IMG/VR virus record: IMGVR_UViG_3300049445_000157
Span: 1 to 29,794 of that record
Origin: a virus
Length of the DNA: 29,794 nucleotides
Reading direction: 5' to 3' (one strand)
This document shows positions 3,349 to 12,926 of the stretch, one piece after another. The first letter of the stretch is position 1; the number at the start of each line of letters is the position of its first letter. Below the pieces are notes generated by a model that worked only from the letters and a program-made list of their open reading frames with translations, was not told the DNA's origin and made no database searches. Made by a program: the position numbers and the translations under genes.

Positions 3349-3945
3349 TCATTGAAAAGCTGGACCCCTGTCCATTAGCTCTAGTTGCATTGCGCTGAAT
3401 CGTCGGAAGTTGGCGTGCCGTTCCAGGTCGGCATACGGCGTCCAGATAACCCAACTGCTATTGCGCTGGCGTCGCTTTGTTTGCTCGCGCTTGTCGTAAA
3501 GCTGCCAGCGACGGAGGCCGCTTTCCATTCGCTCGTTAAGCATGGCCTTCCACGCCGGCAGACGACCAACGACACCAGAATCGTATGACAAACAATAGAT
3601 GCCGATTAGATCGGCGTTGCAGGTAAGACCCCAGCCGCGTTTAGAATTGATGCGATCCGGCGTGCCGTCGGGCATAAGAACGCGATTTGAGTAAACCTCA
3701 AATGGAGCGTCGTGGGATTTTTCCAGAAACTTCATTTCAAGCACGTATGAACCGAATTGATCGACGCTTACTAGCGCATCACCGGCAGTCTTTTGCAGCA
3801 ACAAGGCAAGTCCGCTTTTAGCGATCCACACCCAGCGCCCATCATAAGACTCCTGCGTTAACCAAGGCGCCAGACGTTGTTTTCCGCGCTCCTCGATCCG
3901 TCGCGCCTGATCGAATGCGTTCGGAAGGCGGACAATGTTTGTCAT
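3349..3945 (-). CDS. Hypothetical phage protein, possible PD-(D/E)XK nuclease fold
   Basis: In this 198-residue protein the segment ALVSVDQFGSYVLEMKFLEK has D62 followed by E70-M-K72, the spacing of a PD-(D/E)XK core. FEVYSNR and GWGLTCNADLIGIYCL follow, a pattern also seen in phage nucleases of that fold. The C-terminus is basic and Trp-rich (SSWVIWTPYADLERH). It starts at ATG 3945, overlapping the methyltransferase stop as ATGA. Local GC content is lower than its neighbours. The nuclease idea is suggestive only. Together with the VRR-NUC gene it could supply the exonuclease absent beside recT. Confidence 0.5.
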   Translation of the reverse strand: MTNIVRLPNAFDQARRIEERGKQRLAPWLTQESYDGRWVWIAKSGLALLLQKTAGDALVSVDQFGSYVLEMKFLEKSHDAPFEVYSNRVLMPDGTPDRINSKRGWGLTCNADLIGIYCLSYDSGVVGRLPAWKAMLNERMESGLRRWQLYDKREQTKRRQRNSSWVIWTPYADLERHANFRRFSAMQLELMDRGPAFQ

Positions 3946-4937
3946 TGTGCCGCGTCCGCAAGCTGATTGCCCCAGCCGGTCCAGCCATCGCGCGCTTCGC
4001 GCTGGAATAGTTCAAGCTTCGGCAATGTTGGATACCAGCGCTCGATTAGTTCATAGAACGCGACCGGTTTTTCGCTATGCCTACCACGATCAGCAAAGAT
4101 GACCGACGACTCGCGATCCTCGGGCAATGGCGGCGGAAGCTCGCCCCGCTTCGCGATCAGCAATAGCTCGTGCTGCGACCGCGCATGGTAGCCCATGCCG
4201 ATCTTGTCCTTTACCCAGACGACGTTCGTCCGATAGGTGAAGCCCCAGGCGGCAATGACGGCGAGACATTCGGCGAGCTTCGGCGCGGTCGCCCACATAT
4301 AGAGCAACGCATCGTCGGCGGCGATCTGAGCGATCGGCAAAGCGCAGATGTCGTCGAGCTGCATCGTCGGATATTGATTCTCGATCGAGCGATTGCTGCC
4401 GCCCATTGGGGGATTCTCATATCGCCAAGGCGGGTCGGCGAGCAGCAAGGGAAACTGACCAGACGGAAGCGACATGCCGGCAATCTGATGTTGCTGTCGC
4501 CGCTTCGCGATCTCGGCGCGAAGCTCGCGCACCGTAGCACGCTGTTTCTCCGTCCAGTCTAATAGCGCGTCTGCGTGCTCTTGATTCGCAATTCCAGACA
4601 CTTCCCGATGGAAGCTCCAACTTAACATGTCGCGACGTCGCGACACGTCGGCGAAACGTTTAGCAACCCATCCCGCATCGCGGCAGGTTTCGTATGTTGG
4701 ACCATGCCAACTATCGCTTTGCACAATCGCAAGCCGATCGCCGAAGTGATGCTCGCCGAATGCCCACCAGTCGCCGATCCACCACAGCACGGCGCCTTCG
4801 ATCTGGCCTAACATTTCGCCGGCTTTGCGCCAGTCGTCGAACGTGCATGCCTTCGGGATCGACCACGATACGCGAGTAACCTTGCCGGCAAGGCCCAACT
4901 TGCTGCCGACGCCGACAAGCGTCCCGCGCGTCGTCAT
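3942..4937 (-). CDS. MT-A70 family DNA adenine N6-methyltransferase with extra N-terminal domain
   Basis: The protein has 331 residues. The C-terminal half is an MT-A70 methyltransferase: LLLADPPWRYENPP puts the catalytic DPPW at residues 168-171, followed by ENQYPTM, DALLYMWATAPKL, WGFTYRTNVVWVKDKIGMGYHAR and the HSEKPVAFYELIERW end. It transfers methyl from S-adenosylmethionine to adenine N6. Residues 30-120 (WWIGDWWAFGEHHFGDR ... RRRDMLSWSFHREV) form a separate helical domain that I cannot name. The start is ATG 4937, overlapping the VRR-NUC stop as ATGA; longer frames to 5270 are read-through of that gene. No cognate restriction enzyme is seen, so it probably protects or marks phage DNA. 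Confidence 0.88.
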   Translation of the reverse strand: MTTRGTLVGVGSKLGLAGKVTRVSWSIPKACTFDDWRKAGEMLGQIEGAVLWWIGDWWAFGEHHFGDRLAIVQSDSWHGPTYETCRDAGWVAKRFADVSRRRDMLSWSFHREVSGIANQEHADALLDWTEKQRATVRELRAEIAKRRQQHQIAGMSLPSGQFPLLLADPPWRYENPPMGGSNRSIENQYPTMQLDDICALPIAQIAADDALLYMWATAPKLAECLAVIAAWGFTYRTNVVWVKDKIGMGYHARSQHELLLIAKRGELPPPLPEDRESSVIFADRGRHSEKPVAFYELIERWYPTLPKLELFQREARDGWTGWGNQLADAAQ

Positions 4938-5440
4938 GCTGCGATCCTCCCCCGTAACGGCACTTGCCAAGCCGCGAGCGCGTCGAGCACGGCGACGACG
5001 GTCTCGCAGACCGCGATCCGCATCCCCGCCGCTTCCAGCCGTGGGAATTCCTCGCGCTGGCCCTCGACGTAGCGGCGCGCGCCGGTCCGCCGGTTGACCA
5101 CCCACCGCGCGATGCTCAACCGCTCGCCGGGGCGCTTTAGCTCGATGCCGTGTGTCGCGCCGCAGTGCAGCACGAGAATGTCGGGCCAGTTGCGCTTGAG
5201 ACCGAGCCGCGCGAGCTTGACCGCGTAGCGCGCCGGCAACGGGACGTGGCCCGCCGGGAACGTCGTCCAACGGGCCGGCGGCATCAGGAGCCGGTCGAGC
5301 GCTTCGGCGACGGCCGCATGCAGATCATTCTCGGGCGGGATAGCCGCGGTCAACCGGAACGGGGCGCGACGTTTGTCCGTAATCGTACAGTTTTTTAACG
5401 GGGCGGCGTCGGTCGTACGCAATAATGGCGCGCGGCCCAC
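4934..5440 (-). CDS. VRR-NUC family nuclease
   Basis: In this 168-residue protein, PPENDLHAAVAEALDRLL supplies the N-terminal Glu, NWPDILVL supplies P86-D87, and GIELKRPG supplies E100-L-K102. This is the PD-(D/E)XK triad of VRR-NUC nucleases. A Gln and a Cys-containing helix near the end (GQREEFPRLEAAGMRIAVCET) match the family. Phage members act on branched or recombination DNA. The start is taken as GTG 5440, 9 nt after the regulator's stop. The N-terminal 30 residues are atypical, so a later start is possible. Confidence 0.78.
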   Translation of the reverse strand: MGRAPLLRTTDAAPLKNCTITDKRRAPFRLTAAIPPENDLHAAVAEALDRLLMPPARWTTFPAGHVPLPARYAVKLARLGLKRNWPDILVLHCGATHGIELKRPGERLSIARWVVNRRTGARRYVEGQREEFPRLEAAGMRIAVCETVVAVLDALAAWQVPLRGRIAA

Positions 5441-7030: not shown

Positions 7031-8260
7031 ATGGCCCAGCAAGCTCGCGAGCGGCAAGCGATAACGATCGCGCCGCGCTATACCAAGCCGGAGATTTTTG
7101 CCGGCACCGACGTAGCGTGGCGGTCGCTCTGCGAGTGCTATCCCAACGCCGAGACGCCGGAAGTTCTCATGGCGGTGATGGAATACTGCGCGGTCCGCCG
7201 GCTCGATCCCTACAAGCGGCCGGTGCATGTCGTTCCGATGTGGAACGCCAAGCTACGGCGCCGCGTCCAGGTCGTCATGCAGGGAATCAACGAGATCGAA
7301 ATTACCGCGTCGCGGACCGGCGCCTGGGCGGGCATGGACATGCCGAAGTGGTCCGACGATCTCGGCCCCGCCGGCTTGGTCGAGCGGACCTTTCGCGGCA
7401 CGATCGACAACGACGACGGCTCGACGACCAAGATTGAAAAGACGTTGCGCTTTCCGCTCTGGTGCGCGGTAACCGTCTATCGGCTGGTCGGCGGCGAAAA
7501 GCGCGCCTTCACCGAGCAGCTATTTTGGGAAGAGTGCTACGCGACGGCCGGCTTCAAGTCGGAAGTGCCGAACGAACGCTGGGCCAAGGCGCCGCGTCAG
7601 ATGCTCCACAAGTGCGTCAAAGCCGCCGTGTTGCGCGCGGCGTTTCCCGAGGAAGGTCTCGGCTATACCGCCGAGGAGATGGAGGACCGGCCGACCGATA
7701 CCGGCGGCGTGACGATCGAGGGCAAGATTGACCACGGCGATCCTGGCCTGACCGACCGCGACCGGCAGGCCGATCAGGTTTATCCGCCGCCGCCGAAGCC
7801 GCCGGCCGACGCTACGGCGGGTCTCGCCGCGCTTGAGGATCAGAATGCCTCGCGCTGGATCAAGAGCGTCCAGACGCTCCTGGCGACCGTAGCGACCGAG
7901 GCCGAAGTGATCGCGATCAACAACCATCCGCGCGTGCGCACCGCGCTCGAAAAGGCGCCGCAATTGGTCCGCGAGAACATTCGGGACTGGATCAACGAAG
8001 CGCGCATCCGAACGGTGGTGGTCGAGGAACCGCCGATCGAGGAGAAAGATTGGACGATCCCGAGCGGCGACGACTGGCCGGATGATCCGATCCGCGAACT
8101 GCTCGCCGAGATCGAGGCGATGGACGCGGACGGTCTCGACGTGCTGTCGGTCAGCGCGTCGTGGAAGGTCAAAACGCGCGATCTGTTTCCGCTCGATCTC
8201 GATCGGGTGAACGAAGCGATTGCGGACCGGCGCCGGCTATTGAAGGGAGGCAAGACATGA
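7031..8260 (+). CDS. recT: Phage recombination protein Bet/RecT family, with C-terminal extension
   Basis: The protein has 409 residues. The Bet core is seen in VLMAVMEYCAVRRLDPYKRP, VHVVPMWNAKLRRRVQVVMQ, GINEIEITASRTGAWAG, then FPLWCAVTVYRLVGGEKRAF and RWAKAPRQMLHKCVKAAVLR with AFPEEGLGYTAEEM. These proteins anneal single strands during homologous recombination. A Pro-rich linker follows at about residues 240-265, and then a C-terminal domain (SRWIKSVQTLLATVATEAEV...VRENIRDWINEA) that many alphaproteobacterial phage copies carry. No exonuclease partner gene is adjacent. AGGAAG precedes the ATG, and the stop overlaps the next gene as ATGA. Confidence 0.93.
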   Translation: MAQQARERQAITIAPRYTKPEIFAGTDVAWRSLCECYPNAETPEVLMAVMEYCAVRRLDPYKRPVHVVPMWNAKLRRRVQVVMQGINEIEITASRTGAWAGMDMPKWSDDLGPAGLVERTFRGTIDNDDGSTTKIEKTLRFPLWCAVTVYRLVGGEKRAFTEQLFWEECYATAGFKSEVPNERWAKAPRQMLHKCVKAAVLRAAFPEEGLGYTAEEMEDRPTDTGGVTIEGKIDHGDPGLTDRDRQADQVYPPPPKPPADATAGLAALEDQNASRWIKSVQTLLATVATEAEVIAINNHPRVRTALEKAPQLVRENIRDWINEARIRTVVVEEPPIEEKDWTIPSGDDWPDDPIRELLAEIEAMDADGLDVLSVSASWKVKTRDLFPLDLDRVNEAIADRRRLLKGGKT

Positions 8261-8463
8261 CCACGCGGCACAAGCCTGACCACGAGATTCAATTGATGTT
8301 GCGCGTGTTGCGCGATCTCCAAGCGTTGCCCAAAGCGGGACGGCATCGCGTGCTGGCCTATTGGAACGCGCGCGCCGACGACATGCCGGAGACCAGCAGC
8401 AAGCAGGGCGAACAGCAACTCGATATCGAGGACACGCTATTGCCGGCGAAGGCGGCAGCATGA
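8257..8463 (+). CDS. Small hypothetical protein (68 aa)
   Basis: It reads MTTRHKPDHEIQLMLRVLRD, then LQALPKAGRHRVLAYWNARAD and a polar tail. The core is two helices, of the kind encoded beside recT. The start at 8257 overlaps the recT stop and the stop overlaps the next gene, both as ATGA. Family not recognised. Confidence 0.7.
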   Translation: MTTRHKPDHEIQLMLRVLRDLQALPKAGRHRVLAYWNARADDMPETSSKQGEQQLDIEDTLLPAKAAA

Positions 8464-8804
8464 TTAGCGCGCGCGAATTCAACCGGATCGAAAAGGCGCG
8501 CGAGATCGAGCTTCGTCCGCCGCCGCCGGCCACGTCGCCGCCCGCGTCGCGCAAGACGCGGACGCTCGCCGAGATCGGCGCGGACGCCGGTAGCGCGGTC
8601 GCGACCGTTCCCCGGTTGCTCGACGCGGATCGGATCGCCGAGCTTTTGCAGGTCACGCGCCGGCACGTAAACCATCTGGTGCACATCGGCGAATTCCCCA
8701 AGCCGGTCCTGGTCGGAACGCAACGGCGCTGGCTCGCGAGCGATTACAACGCGTACGTTGCCAAGCTGCGCGAGAAACAAGCGAAGCGGCGCCGCCATGC
8801 CTGA
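8460..8804 (+). CDS. AlpA/excisionase-like winged-helix DNA-binding protein (114 aa)
   Basis: The C-terminal half is a MerR/AlpA-type wHTH: LLDADRIAELLQVTRRHVNH, LVHIGEFPKPVLVGTQRRWL and ASDYNAYVAKLREKQAKRRR. The FPKPV..G...RW...D motif is the hallmark of AlpA and excisionase proteins. Residues 1-55 are disordered (Pro/Ala/Arg). With an integrase 2.8 kb downstream it is the best excisionase candidate, although AlpA proteins can also be transcription activators. It starts at ATG 8460 in an ATGA overlap. Confidence 0.78.
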   Translation: MISAREFNRIEKAREIELRPPPPATSPPASRKTRTLAEIGADAGSAVATVPRLLDADRIAELLQVTRRHVNHLVHIGEFPKPVLVGTQRRWLASDYNAYVAKLREKQAKRRRHA

Positions 8805-9588: not shown

Positions 9589-9842
9589 CGCTCCGGCGTT
9601 GCGCCTGCGGCCGCAAGGCGATGACCTTCGCTCCGGGTGGCGAACCGATCCACGCGCCGGGCCATGTCCTGGTCGATCGCGGTAGCCGAGCTCAGGCATG
9701 GTGCCGCGCCTGCGCGGAGGCCCGTGGCTGGCTTGTCGCGCCGGAACGTCCGTCCGTAGCGGTCGCTTGCGCGACGCCGCGTAGCCACCGGAAAACCGGC
9801 ATAGCGAAGCGATCAGGGAGGAAGGGCAATGCGCGATCTTAG
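9585..9842 (+). CDS. Small Cys-rich protein (85 aa)
   Basis: RRCACGRKAM and WCRACAEARGW supply CxC and CxxC pairs about 35 residues apart, a likely zinc site. The C-terminus is basic. The GTG start at 9585 overlaps the stop of the tiny membrane ORF, and the end overlaps the next gene by 14 bp. Function unknown. Confidence 0.6.
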   Translation: MTLRRCACGRKAMTFAPGGEPIHAPGHVLVDRGSRAQAWCRACAEARGWLVAPERPSVAVACATPRSHRKTGIAKRSGRKGNARS

Positions 9843-10284
9843 ATTGCTCGACGCGCATCGGTTACGTGGGCGCGAGGTCATCGAATTTTACGGCTGGGAG
9901 GGCGATGATACCTGCGGCGCCTTCATGCTTCGATCGTCGATCGACGGCGGCGACTTGGTGGTGATCGCAAGCAACGGCGAGGGCTGGGATCACGTCTCGG
10001 TCTCGCGGCGCAACCGTTGTCCGAACTGGACGGAGATGGAGCAAGTCAAGCGGCTATTTTTCCGCGACGACGAAACTGCCATGCAGCTACACGTTCCGCC
10101 GTCCGATTACGTCAACGCTCACCCCTATACGCTCCACCTCTGGCGACCGCTCGATCAGGAGATACCGCGTCCGCCGAGTGTCATGGTCGGGATCGGAAGC
10201 TCGCCGCTAAAGTCGGCGCAGGACGCGCGGTTAATGCATCGCAAGGCGCTTGCGGAAGTGCGCGAGCGAAAGGGGCGACCATGA
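9829..10284 (+). CDS. DUF7694-like phage protein (151 aa)
   Basis: The segment GWDHVSVSRRNRCPNWTEME, then QVKRLFFRDDETAMQLHVPP, then YVNAHPYTLHLWRP is the signature of a widespread small phage protein family (HVSVS...P.W.EM..VK..FF...E.AMQ.H....YVN.HP..LHLWRP). Its biochemical role is not known to me. The start at ATG 9829 follows an AGGGAGGAAGGG stretch, an unusually strong ribosome site. It ends in ATGA with the next gene. Confidence 0.75.
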   Translation: MRDLRLLDAHRLRGREVIEFYGWEGDDTCGAFMLRSSIDGGDLVVIASNGEGWDHVSVSRRNRCPNWTEMEQVKRLFFRDDETAMQLHVPPSDYVNAHPYTLHLWRPLDQEIPRPPSVMVGIGSSPLKSAQDARLMHRKALAEVRERKGRP

Positions 10285-10508
10285 AAGAGCAAGAGGCTAT
10301 CGCGAAGGCTATGGCGGCACTCGAAGCGGCCGAAAAGCAATTCACGACCTACGCGGAGCATCACAAGCTACAAGCAAACGCCGCTTATGCCACCAAGATC
10401 GAGCGAGAAAGGCGCCTAGCGCAAGCCTCCACCAACTACGGATATGCGGTCCTGTGTGGAGACGCGCTGGAACACCTAAAGCTTGCGGTGGAAGTGCGCG
10501 AGCGATGA
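10281..10508 (+). CDS. Small coiled-coil hypothetical protein (75 aa)
   Basis: MKEQEAIAKAMAALEAAEKQ followed by a charged helical run (YATKIERERRLAQASTNYGY) suggests a coiled coil. Start and stop are both ATGA overlaps with neighbours. Family not recognised. Confidence 0.68.
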   Translation: MKEQEAIAKAMAALEAAEKQFTTYAEHHKLQANAAYATKIERERRLAQASTNYGYAVLCGDALEHLKLAVEVRER

Positions 10509-10750
10509 TCGCGACCGAGCCAGACGATATCGACGACATGCTAAACGCGATGCTTCGGGAGACCGACTGCGATCGCTCCGGCGACCTATCCGACAAGCTT
10601 GTTAAAGCGTCGATGACCTACTCGCGCGGCGAGATCGTCGTTGCGCTGGCGATTACGCTCGCGGCGCTGGTCGATCAATGTCCGTCGCCGCCGCTTATGC
10701 TCGACCTTGCGGTGCGGCTGGCCGAGCGTTTTTTGGAAGTCGGCGAGTAG
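10505..10750 (+). CDS. Small acidic helical protein (81 aa), last gene before the CRISPR array
   Basis: It reads MIATEPDDIDDMLNAMLRET through GEIVVALAITLAALVDQCPS to AVRLAERFLEVGE. The middle is hydrophobic but reads as a packed helix rather than a sure membrane segment. The start is an ATGA overlap at 10505. The TAG at 10748-10750 lies inside the degenerate first CRISPR repeat, so the array abuts the end of the early operon directly. Confidence 0.66.
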   Translation: MIATEPDDIDDMLNAMLRETDCDRSGDLSDKLVKASMTYSRGEIVVALAITLAALVDQCPSPPLMLDLAVRLAERFLEVGE

Positions 10751-10956
10751 ATGCCCCGCATGGCGGGGAACGCCCGGTCCCTGGTCTCGCCAAATCGAGC
10801 GGCGGCGGTTCATCCCCGCATGCGCGGGGAACGCCGAGGCAACCGGCCCTTGCGCGGCTTGTGCAGCGGTTCATCCCCGCATGCGCGGGGAACGCAGCGC
10901 CAGCAACATCCGGGCCGGCGTCTGCACCGGTTCATCCCCGCATGCGCGGGGAACGC
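10745..10956 (-). CRISPR. Mini CRISPR array, type I-E-like, three intact repeats, one degenerate repeat, three 32-bp spacers
   Basis: Three identical 29-bp repeats lie at 10806-10834, 10867-10895 and 10928-10956. Each begins CGGTTCAT, contains CCCCGCATGCGCGGGG (6-bp stem, 4-nt loop) and ends AACGC. A fourth, degenerate copy at 10745-10773 keeps CCCCGC-ATG-GCGGGG-AACGC but has lost the CGGTT end. Spacers at 10774-10805, 10835-10866 and 10896-10927 are all exactly 32 bp and unrelated to one another. Repeat and spacer lengths are those of type I-E. In the usual I-E orientation (repeat ending GATGAACCG) the array reads on the minus strand, so the degenerate copy is at the trailer end and the leader would lie to the right. 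No cas gene is present, so function would need host Cas proteins. Confidence 0.93.
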
Positions 10957-10992
10957 CCGGCGAGAAACGCCCTTCGTATCTACTAGCGGCCG

Positions 10993-11009
10993 GTTGCAAT
11001 CCATGCAAG
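10993..11009. promoter_or_regulatory. Operator O3 beside the CRISPR leader
   Basis: GTTGCAATCCATGCAAG; its reverse complement CTTGCATGGATTGCAAC matches O4 at 15 of 17 positions. It starts 37 bp from the last repeat, where a leader promoter reading into the array would sit. Flanking GGCC(GG) bases extend the symmetry. Confidence 0.5.
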
Positions 11010-11032
11010 CCGGCCAGCCCACCTATGCGCGG

Positions 11033-11257
11033 TCGCATGAAAACTCGCATGGTTGAATCATGCGGTCGGCGTAACCGCTTGAAAACGCGCGATTATCCTA
11101 CGGAACCGGCATTGTTGACCACAACGCGGCCTGCACCACCTAGCGCTACCTAGCCGGGAGATTAGCTAGACAATCCAGGCGTTTACGCGGTATGGCCTTG
11201 CATGGAATGCAAGCGACGACCAGGATAGGATATTCTGGATCGCATGTTTTTCGCATG
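11033..11257. repeat. Two pairs of TCGCATG direct repeats
   Basis: TCGCATG occurs at 11033-11039 and 11045-11051 (12-bp step), then again at 11240-11246 and 11251-11257 (11-bp step). One-turn spacing in two separate pairs suggests cooperative protein binding. The second pair lies just before the Shine-Dalgarno of the gene at 11272. Confidence 0.5.
11197..11213. promoter_or_regulatory. Operator O4 before the lone gene
   Basis: CTTGCATGGAATGCAAG has 7-bp perfect arms around three central bases and the same frame as O1. It lies 58 bp before the ATG at 11272, with a TAGGATATT box 13 bp further on that could be a -10 element. Repressor bound here would cover the -35 side. Confidence 0.58.
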
Positions 11258-11271
11258 AAAGGGAACCGACT

Positions 11272-11514
11272 ATGACAACCTCAACCGCCTTCAAGCCGGC
11301 CGCGATCTCGGCGGACATGATAACCGAGACCGGGCCGCATACGTTCGTCGTCGATGCGTCCGATCTCCGCTGGCCGGCCGGTATCGAGTGGCCGGCGACG
11401 ATCGAGACGACGATGGGCAACGGCTTGCGCTTCCAACTTTGGTCCGCGAGCCGCGACCATGCGACCTATCGCCAAGCGAACGGCATCATCGTCGTAAGCG
11501 TATTCAACGACTGA
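11272..11514 (+). CDS. Lone hypothetical protein (80 aa) with own control region and terminator
   Basis: The protein reads MTTSTAFKPAAISADMITET, then GPHTFVVDASDLRWPAGIEW, then TTMGNGLRFQLWSASRDHAT and ends GIIVVSVFND. It is slightly acidic and beta-rich, without Cys motifs or membrane segments, and I do not recognise it. AAGGGA lies 9 nt before the ATG. It is a single-gene transcription unit: an operator-like dyad upstream and an intrinsic terminator 11 bp after the stop. Beside a CRISPR array, this could be a lysogeny-expressed moron, an array accessory or an anti-CRISPR; nothing in the sequence chooses between these. Confidence 0.72.
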   Translation: MTTSTAFKPAAISADMITETGPHTFVVDASDLRWPAGIEWPATIETTMGNGLRFQLWSASRDHATYRQANGIIVVSVFND

Positions 11515-11562: not shown

Positions 11563-11588
11563 AACCGATGCAAGGGAAGTTCGACCAA

Positions 11589-12926
11589 ATGACCACTACC
11601 ACCCACAACCGTCCGCAGCAAGCCGGCAAGCTTGCGAGCGGCGCGGATATCAAGACGGCGAAGCCGGGCGCCAAGCTGCGGTTCGGCAACGGCCTATATC
11701 TGCTGGTCTCGCCGACCGGAACCAAGTCCTGGCAGGTTCACTACCATGTCGCCGGCCGGCACCAAGCGACGATCGTCGGTCGCTGGCCCGATCTCGGGAT
11801 CGTCGAGGCCAAGGCGGCGCGCGAAGCGATCCGGCAGACCGTCCGAGCCGGCGACGATCCGGCGCACGAGCGGACGGAGAAACGGACCGCGCGGATCGAG
11901 GCGAACGCGGCAACCGTCCGCGTCGTCGCCGAGCGATGGATCGAGATCGCGCAAGAGGCGCGCGGCTGGTCGGCGAACTATACCGCCCAGACCGCGCAAC
12001 GGCTCGCGAACCATGTCCTGCCGGTTATCGGCGAGCGGCCGATCGGCCGGGTGACGACGCATGAGATCGAGGCGCTGATCGGCGGCTTGCTAAAGCGGTT
12101 GCGCTCGCAAGCCGTCCACGTCCGCCAGCATATGCAACTGCTGTTCGACTATGCGCTGCGGCATGATCTCGTGACCGTCAATCCGGTTCGTAAGATTGCC
12201 GCCGACCTACCGAAGCGCGTTGCCGGCGATCCGCGCGAAGTTAGCCAAGCGCATGTCGAGACGATCGCGGAAGCGCGGACCGTTCTTGCGGCAATGGAAG
12301 CGACGCCTTGCTCGCCGTTCGCCGCGCTCGCGCATCGGCTGATTGCGTTGACCGCCGTCCGCAAGCTCGAAGGCGTCGAGGCGCAATGGTCGGAAGTCTC
12401 GGAAGGCGCGGACGGTATGACCTGGACGATTCCGGCCGCGCGGATGAAAGGCCGGCGCGGTCAAAAGCGCGAGCATGTCATCCCGCTATCGCCGCAAGCC
12501 GCCGACGTGTTCCGCGCCGCGCGGACGCTCGCGGTCTCGCTCGGCGTCAATTCGCCGAGCGTGTTCCCTGGTCGCGGCAATCGCGGCAACCTCGAGCGAT
12601 CCGGCTTGAACGACGTGATGCGTCGCGCGCTCGCGTCGGTCGATCTCGCCGGCCGGCATACCGTCCACGGCTGGCGGGCGACGTTTTCGACGATCTGCAA
12701 CGAAGCCGATCCGGGCGCGTATCGCGTGATCGACGTGATGCTCGCGCATAAGGCGTTCGGCGCGGTCGAGAGCCGATACAACAAAGCGACTTTTCTCGCC
12801 GAGCGGCGTCGCATGGCAACCGCGTGGGCGGATCAATTGCTCGACGGCGCGCCGAGCGCTTTCGAGATCGCCGGTCTCGACGAGCCGACAACGAGCAACG
12901 TCGTGCAATTGAGGGAGGCGGCGTGA
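11589..12926 (+). CDS. int: Tyrosine recombinase / phage integrase, P4-like
   Basis: The product has 445 residues. The N-terminal DUF4102-like domain has KLRFGNGLYLLVSPTGTKSW and VGRWPDLGIVEAKAAREAIR. A SAM-like core-binding domain covers roughly residues 110-210. The catalytic domain shows TAVRKLEGVEAQW (R258), KREHVIPLS (H296), VHGWRATF (H360-x-x-R363), MLAHKAFGAVESRYNK (H387 and nucleophile Y397). It catalyses site-specific integration and excision, typically at tRNA genes. ATG 11589 is preferred because GGGAAG lies before it; ATG 11568 is in the T tract after the terminator and has no ribosome site. Its TGATG overlap couples it to three more small genes and an HTH gene. Confidence 0.93.
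   Translation: MTTTTHNRPQQAGKLASGADIKTAKPGAKLRFGNGLYLLVSPTGTKSWQVHYHVAGRHQATIVGRWPDLGIVEAKAAREAIRQTVRAGDDPAHERTEKRTARIEANAATVRVVAERWIEIAQEARGWSANYTAQTAQRLANHVLPVIGERPIGRVTTHEIEALIGGLLKRLRSQAVHVRQHMQLLFDYALRHDLVTVNPVRKIAADLPKRVAGDPREVSQAHVETIAEARTVLAAMEATPCSPFAALAHRLIALTAVRKLEGVEAQWSEVSEGADGMTWTIPAARMKGRRGQKREHVIPLSPQAADVFRAARTLAVSLGVNSPSVFPGRGNRGNLERSGLNDVMRRALASVDLAGRHTVHGWRATFSTICNEADPGAYRVIDVMLAHKAFGAVESRYNKATFLAERRRMATAWADQLLDGAPSAFEIAGLDEPTTSNVVQLREAA

Follow-up and report, generated by a model that had tools for sequence, protein, structure and literature searches.

A phage-borne, Cas-less type I-E CRISPR mini-array that may borrow host Cascade

What does a short CRISPR (clustered regularly interspaced short palindromic repeats) array do in a phage record in which no CRISPR-associated (cas) gene is found? 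The question is raised by positions 10745-10956 of IMG/VR virus record IMGVR_UViG_3300049445_000157, whose entire 29,794 bases form the window analyzed here. Judged from its sequence, the locus is a real, well-bounded, phage-borne, Cas-less type I-E mini-array and a further example of a published kind. Its best explanation, to which we assign a probability of about 0.6, is that it borrows host Cascade against rival mobile DNA.

Architecture and type of the array

Direct reading of 10745-10956 gave three intact 29-bp I-E repeats, one degenerate repeat and three spacers. The intact repeat, CGGTTCATCCCCGCATGCGCGGGGAACGC, is identical at 29/29 positions in its three copies, which recur with a period of 61 bp, and the degenerate repeat reads GAGTAGATGCCCCGCATGGCGGGGAACGC. 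The CRISPR RNA (crRNA)-sense strand is the minus strand, so the degenerate unit is the leader-distal repeat, as in ordinary arrays. From the leader-proximal end, the units are as follows:

10928-10956, minus strand: first (leader-proximal) intact repeat, crRNA sense GCGTTCCCCGCGCATGCGGGGATGAACCG, with a 7-pair hairpin
10896-10927, minus strand: spacer 1, exactly 32 bp, crRNA sense GTGCAGACGCCGGCCCGGATGTTGCTGGCGCT; protospacer not found
10867-10895, minus strand: second intact repeat, same sequence as the first
10835-10866, minus strand: spacer 2, exactly 32 bp, crRNA sense CTGCACAAGCCGCGCAAGGGCCGGTTGCCTCG; protospacer not found
10806-10834, minus strand: third intact repeat, same sequence as the first
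10774-10805, minus strand: spacer 3, exactly 32 bp, crRNA sense CCGCCGCTCGATTTGGCGAGACCAGGGACCGG; protospacer not found
10745-10773, minus strand: degenerate leader-distal repeat; 6-pair stem kept, loop region shortened by 1 base, 8-nt handle lost

The repeat has the GC-rich hairpin CCCCGC-N4-GCGGGG of the I-E fold. The 5' handle of the array, ATGAACCG (AUGAACCG in the crRNA), corresponds to the final 8 bases of the crRNA-sense repeat and is 1 base off that of E. coli, ATAAACCG. By our own arithmetic on the base composition of the window, the chance expectation for an exactly repeated 29-mer pair is ~1e-8, and a chance origin of the array is negligible. The record has three copies of the 24-bp core of the repeat and none of a reversed control pattern; a search of Rfam gave no match.

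The type assignment was examined with a 28-bp part of the repeat, which was sought in 84,980 species genomes. The sole matching genome was that of Bordetella ansorpii, in which the full repeat is identical (29/29) and stands in a chromosomal array. This genome encodes Cse1 and Cas6e (family PF08798); ~5 kb from its Cse1 gene lies another array, whose repeat differs at two positions. Five of 398 sampled Pseudomonadota genomes, B. ansorpii included, contain the repeat within ≤3 mismatches. Because a genome encoding Cse1 and Cas6e has the same repeat, and others in the Pseudomonadota sample carry it within the mismatch limit, we take the phage repeat to be a normal I-E repeat. The B. ansorpii array (L004, NZ_FKIF01000002.1) shares with the phage array the identical 29-bp repeat, the 61-bp period and a degenerate terminal repeat, but it has 12 intact repeats, an AT-rich leader, other spacers and a chromosomal location with cas genes. 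It supports the type of the array and not the identity of the host; Bordetella is not claimed as the host.

Phage setting and related loci

The record encodes a tail sheath, a tape measure, a baseplate, an integrase, RecT, a Mu Gam-like protein and a repressor, genes that mark the virus as a temperate myophage. Since genes for the terminase large subunit, portal and capsid were not seen in the record, it is probably a fragment. The features that surround the array are:

7031-8260, plus strand: RecT-like single-strand annealing protein (phrog_2449, E = 4e-44)
10505-10750, plus strand: last open reading frame of the early operon, 81 amino acids, no family; stop codon within the degenerate repeat
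10957-11271, no strand assigned: short non-leader stretch, then a conserved intergenic block with inverted repeats and GCATG motifs, of putative function
11568-12926, plus strand: tyrosine integrase (phrog_1, E = 1.2e-45)

The tightly packed early operon runs to 10750, where its final stop codon falls in the degenerate repeat. Starting ~30 bp past the other end of the array, a block from ~10985 to 11280 is conserved in the related loci L005, L006, L007 and L016 and partly in L008. The array sits flush between the phage operon and this conserved block, with no host sequence alongside, and no host genes were recognized in the stretch. An assembly chimera or binning error, in which a host array was joined to a phage contig, is conceivable for a metagenomic IMG/VR fragment whose exact repeat occurs in no other IMG/VR record. 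It is nonetheless extremely improbable, given phage sequence directly on both sides, the synteny with L005, L006, L007 and L016, and the lack of any recognized host gene.

Comparison of 20 early and integrase-region proteins with PADLOC gave no cas family match, and the record contains no Cse1; should the record be incomplete, the portion of the phage that it lacks could in principle encode a cas gene. A preliminary description of this DNA, made from the sequence alone, had proposed a Cas-less, type I-E-like array of three identical repeats, a degenerate terminal repeat and 32-bp spacers, with phage genes on both sides. The direct reading, the repeat identity with an array of a bacterium that has I-E cas genes, and the recT operon on the left and tyrosine integrase on the right within conserved phage flanks bear these points out, as do the PADLOC and Cse1 results.

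A RecT search of IMG/VR yielded 13 related loci with a common early gene order, 10 of which include the integrase (40-72% identity). The 12 related records that share the synteny yielded neither an array nor a single repeat unit of this type, so the array is accessory cargo in a variable slot, which perhaps lies near the attachment site. The block at 10985-11280 contains inverted repeats (CGGTTGCAATCCATGCAAG / CTTGCATGGAATGCAAGCG), recurring GCATG motifs and TTGTTGACCACAA. It is possibly a phage attachment site (attP) with integrase arm sites, or else an operator or divergent promoter region; no tRNA marking an attachment site was found in the window, and the site was not located.

Arrays of the same repeat class are present in other viral records. 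With the repeat loop relaxed, 41 other IMG/VR records matched, with 1-9 exact units each, and 40 of them lack Cse1. The remaining record, L088 (IMG/VR 3300025534_000213, 191 kb; Cse1 at G797 7093-8511), represents either host sequence or a large phage that encodes a complete I-E system. Window proteins gave only scattered weak matches to the examined stretches of the 41 records.

Five of these records (L056, L058, L061, L071 and L072) are nearly identical phages with a phage-borne I-E array (8098-8368 in L071). One spacer of this group is identical over 32-33 bases to a gene start region of its own phage ~1.5 kb away; the match in L071 (33/33, 9798-9830) spans the ribosome-binding site and start codon of the gene. 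The spacer also matches L081, a phage that is almost the same except that it lacks that array at this place. The triplet TGA flanks the target, and the repeat ends in A in place of G, apparently because the -1 base was taken over together with the spacer. These matches to the own phage and to a sister phage indicate that spacers of such phage-borne arrays can come from phage DNA. The spacer possibly serves self-regulation, or may have been acquired from the sister phage.

Other observations concern the gene content of the window and its relatives. The DUF7694 gene (PF24746) at 9829-10284 is 95% identical to the copy in L017, despite only 44% identity between the integrases of the two phages, which suggests that early-region cargo was exchanged recently between them. 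L005 and L007 lie on one contig (IMG/VR 3300046536_000173, 83 kb) on which the recT-to-integrase region occurs twice, so the contig is perhaps a concatemer or contains two tandem prophages. On the minus strand of the window, a DNA methyltransferase frame (3942-5270) overlaps the gene at 4934-5440 by ~340 bases; family matches of the methyltransferase begin only at residue 236, so its true start is probably well within the listed frame.

Spacer targets, leader and host

Several results weigh against the borrowing of host Cascade. The spacers were compared with 50,697 INPHARED phage records and 72,556 PLSDB plasmid records. IMG/VR was scanned by exact patterns tolerant at every sixth base, with spacers 1 and 2 also scanned by protospacer-adjacent motif plus seed, and the whole records of the 12 relatives, Bordetella and the window were searched at ≤3 mismatches. 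The array itself aside, no protospacer for any spacer was found in INPHARED, PLSDB, the IMG/VR pattern scans, the 12 relatives, Bordetella or the window. Matches to PLSDB plasmids had E-values ≥2, and the best partial matches in the relatives and in the phage's own genome were no better than those of shuffled spacers. Leftward transcription has as its candidate promoter a weak sigma-70-like site at 11121-11092 (minus strand), ~135 bp upstream of the first repeat, which is one 9-of-12 site where 0.4 are expected by chance. No AT-rich leader adjoins the first repeat. Finally, RecT had only remote matches in 398 Pseudomonadota genomes, the tail sheath search reached ≤42% identity, a search with the conserved gene at 4934-5440 was negative across 369 genomes from a single class and the integrase had at most ~35% identity to phages and plasmids; therefore no host is named.

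For the majority of environmental spacers no target is known, so the missing protospacers are weak evidence against targeting. Two other readings of the spacers were rejected. Spacer 1 agreed with the integrase gene of the relative L009 at 23 of 32 positions, a score equalled by 15 of 150 shuffled spacers, and self-targeting or regulatory use of the window array was discarded because the own-genome matches were no better than shuffles. Pooled spacers of the other phage-borne arrays likewise had no match in INPHARED.

Spacers without any target would also fit an RNA anti-CRISPR (Racr)-like decoy, in which host Cas6e and Cas7 would be taken up by the repeat RNAs, I-E immunity against the phage itself would be dampened and the spacers would be incidental. 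Racrs are CRISPR-repeat-like RNA elements that occur on phages without cas genes, and type I-E examples exist (PMC10651486). They are defined, however, as solitary repeat units, whereas the window array has four repeat units, three of them intact and the fourth a trailer repeat, and regular spacers of exactly 32 bp. Beside the array no gene for an anti-CRISPR or Aca protein was recognized, in a comparison that used no dedicated acr library. We therefore regard the decoy as unlikely. A multi-repeat RNA anti-CRISPR, whose repeats and not its spacers would be active and whose regular spacing would yield several decoy crRNAs, tying up host Cascade on sequences absent from the cell, is quite improbable.

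The upstream sequence bears on how the array could change. The 100 nt upstream of the first repeat are 40% AT, compared to 64-72% in the Bordetella leader, and gain of new spacers in place is therefore unlikely. Among the features of type I-E loci, the window array has the hairpin repeat, ~32-bp spacers and a repeat found in a genome with I-E cas genes, and not the AT-rich leader. A leader is needed for acquisition and not for crRNA function, so its absence lowers the claim of spacer gain and not that of an I-E array. Leaders of mini-array phages differ from those of their hosts, which presumably restricts spacer gain to recombination (PMC7099407).

The lack of a leader, of protospacers and of the array in relatives could also mark a passenger: part of a host array, captured through recombination, possibly recently, and neither expressed nor functionally maintained; recent capture alone could explain the identical repeats. 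Against such a passenger, the repeats are still 29/29 identical and the spacers exactly 32 bp, no other host sequence accompanies them, the operon ends in the terminal repeat and, on the other side, the conserved phage block begins ~30 bp from the array. We consider this account unlikely too and rank it just below the decoy.

The borrowing of host Cascade is favored by the 29/32 periodicity, the identical repeats with a degenerate trailer repeat, the hairpin fold and the Bordetella match. It is further favored by the phage flanks, the failure to find a cas gene, the absence of the array in 12 relatives, the lack of Cse1 in 40 of 41 records of the class and the phage-matching spacer of the L071 group, together with a published mechanism and experimental precedent. 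Transcription of the array would run leftward out of the conserved intergenic block, and host Cas6e would cleave the transcript at the identical hairpins. The resulting crRNAs, with the AUGAACCG handle, would load host Cascade, which with host Cas3 would destroy entering phage or plasmid DNA, chiefly during lysogeny.

Relation to known mini-arrays and biological meaning

Cas-less viral mini-arrays, host Cas borrowing and superinfection exclusion have been described (PMC6858448) and reviewed (PMC11656645), and a role of such arrays in inter-virus targeting has been published (PMC6858448, PMC11656645, PMC7099407). The window locus belongs with them as a short array on a viral genome with no cas genes in the record. 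The view of the preliminary description that this could be an undescribed system was not upheld, as both the arrays and their role are published and 41 other IMG/VR records share the repeat class.

The closest comparisons differ in details. The mini-arrays of the archaeal viruses SPV1 and SPV2 are likewise short and intergenic, lack cas genes and have cellular-like repeats, but they have host-like leaders and spacers matching related viruses, while the window array has no recognizable leader or match (PMC6858448). Mini-array phages are also Cas-less and mostly temperate, with few spacers and no host-like leader (PMC11656645, PMC7099407); the mini-arrays of PMC11656645 are, however, defined by 1-2 spacers, compared to three here, and most of their spacers target related viruses, compared to no match here. 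Arrays in Clostridioides difficile prophages have long been known; they are used by host Cas in trans, with a suggested anti-competitor role (PMC6079278). In contrast to the window array, they are of subtype I-B, are highly expressed and have a known host.

The class, few of whose bacterial members have been tested, gains from this locus an intact case with clear boundaries and with sister phages that lack the array. If the borrowing of host Cascade holds true, a temperate phage of a little-known metagenomic family would supply its host with I-E guides and thereby decide which phages enter.
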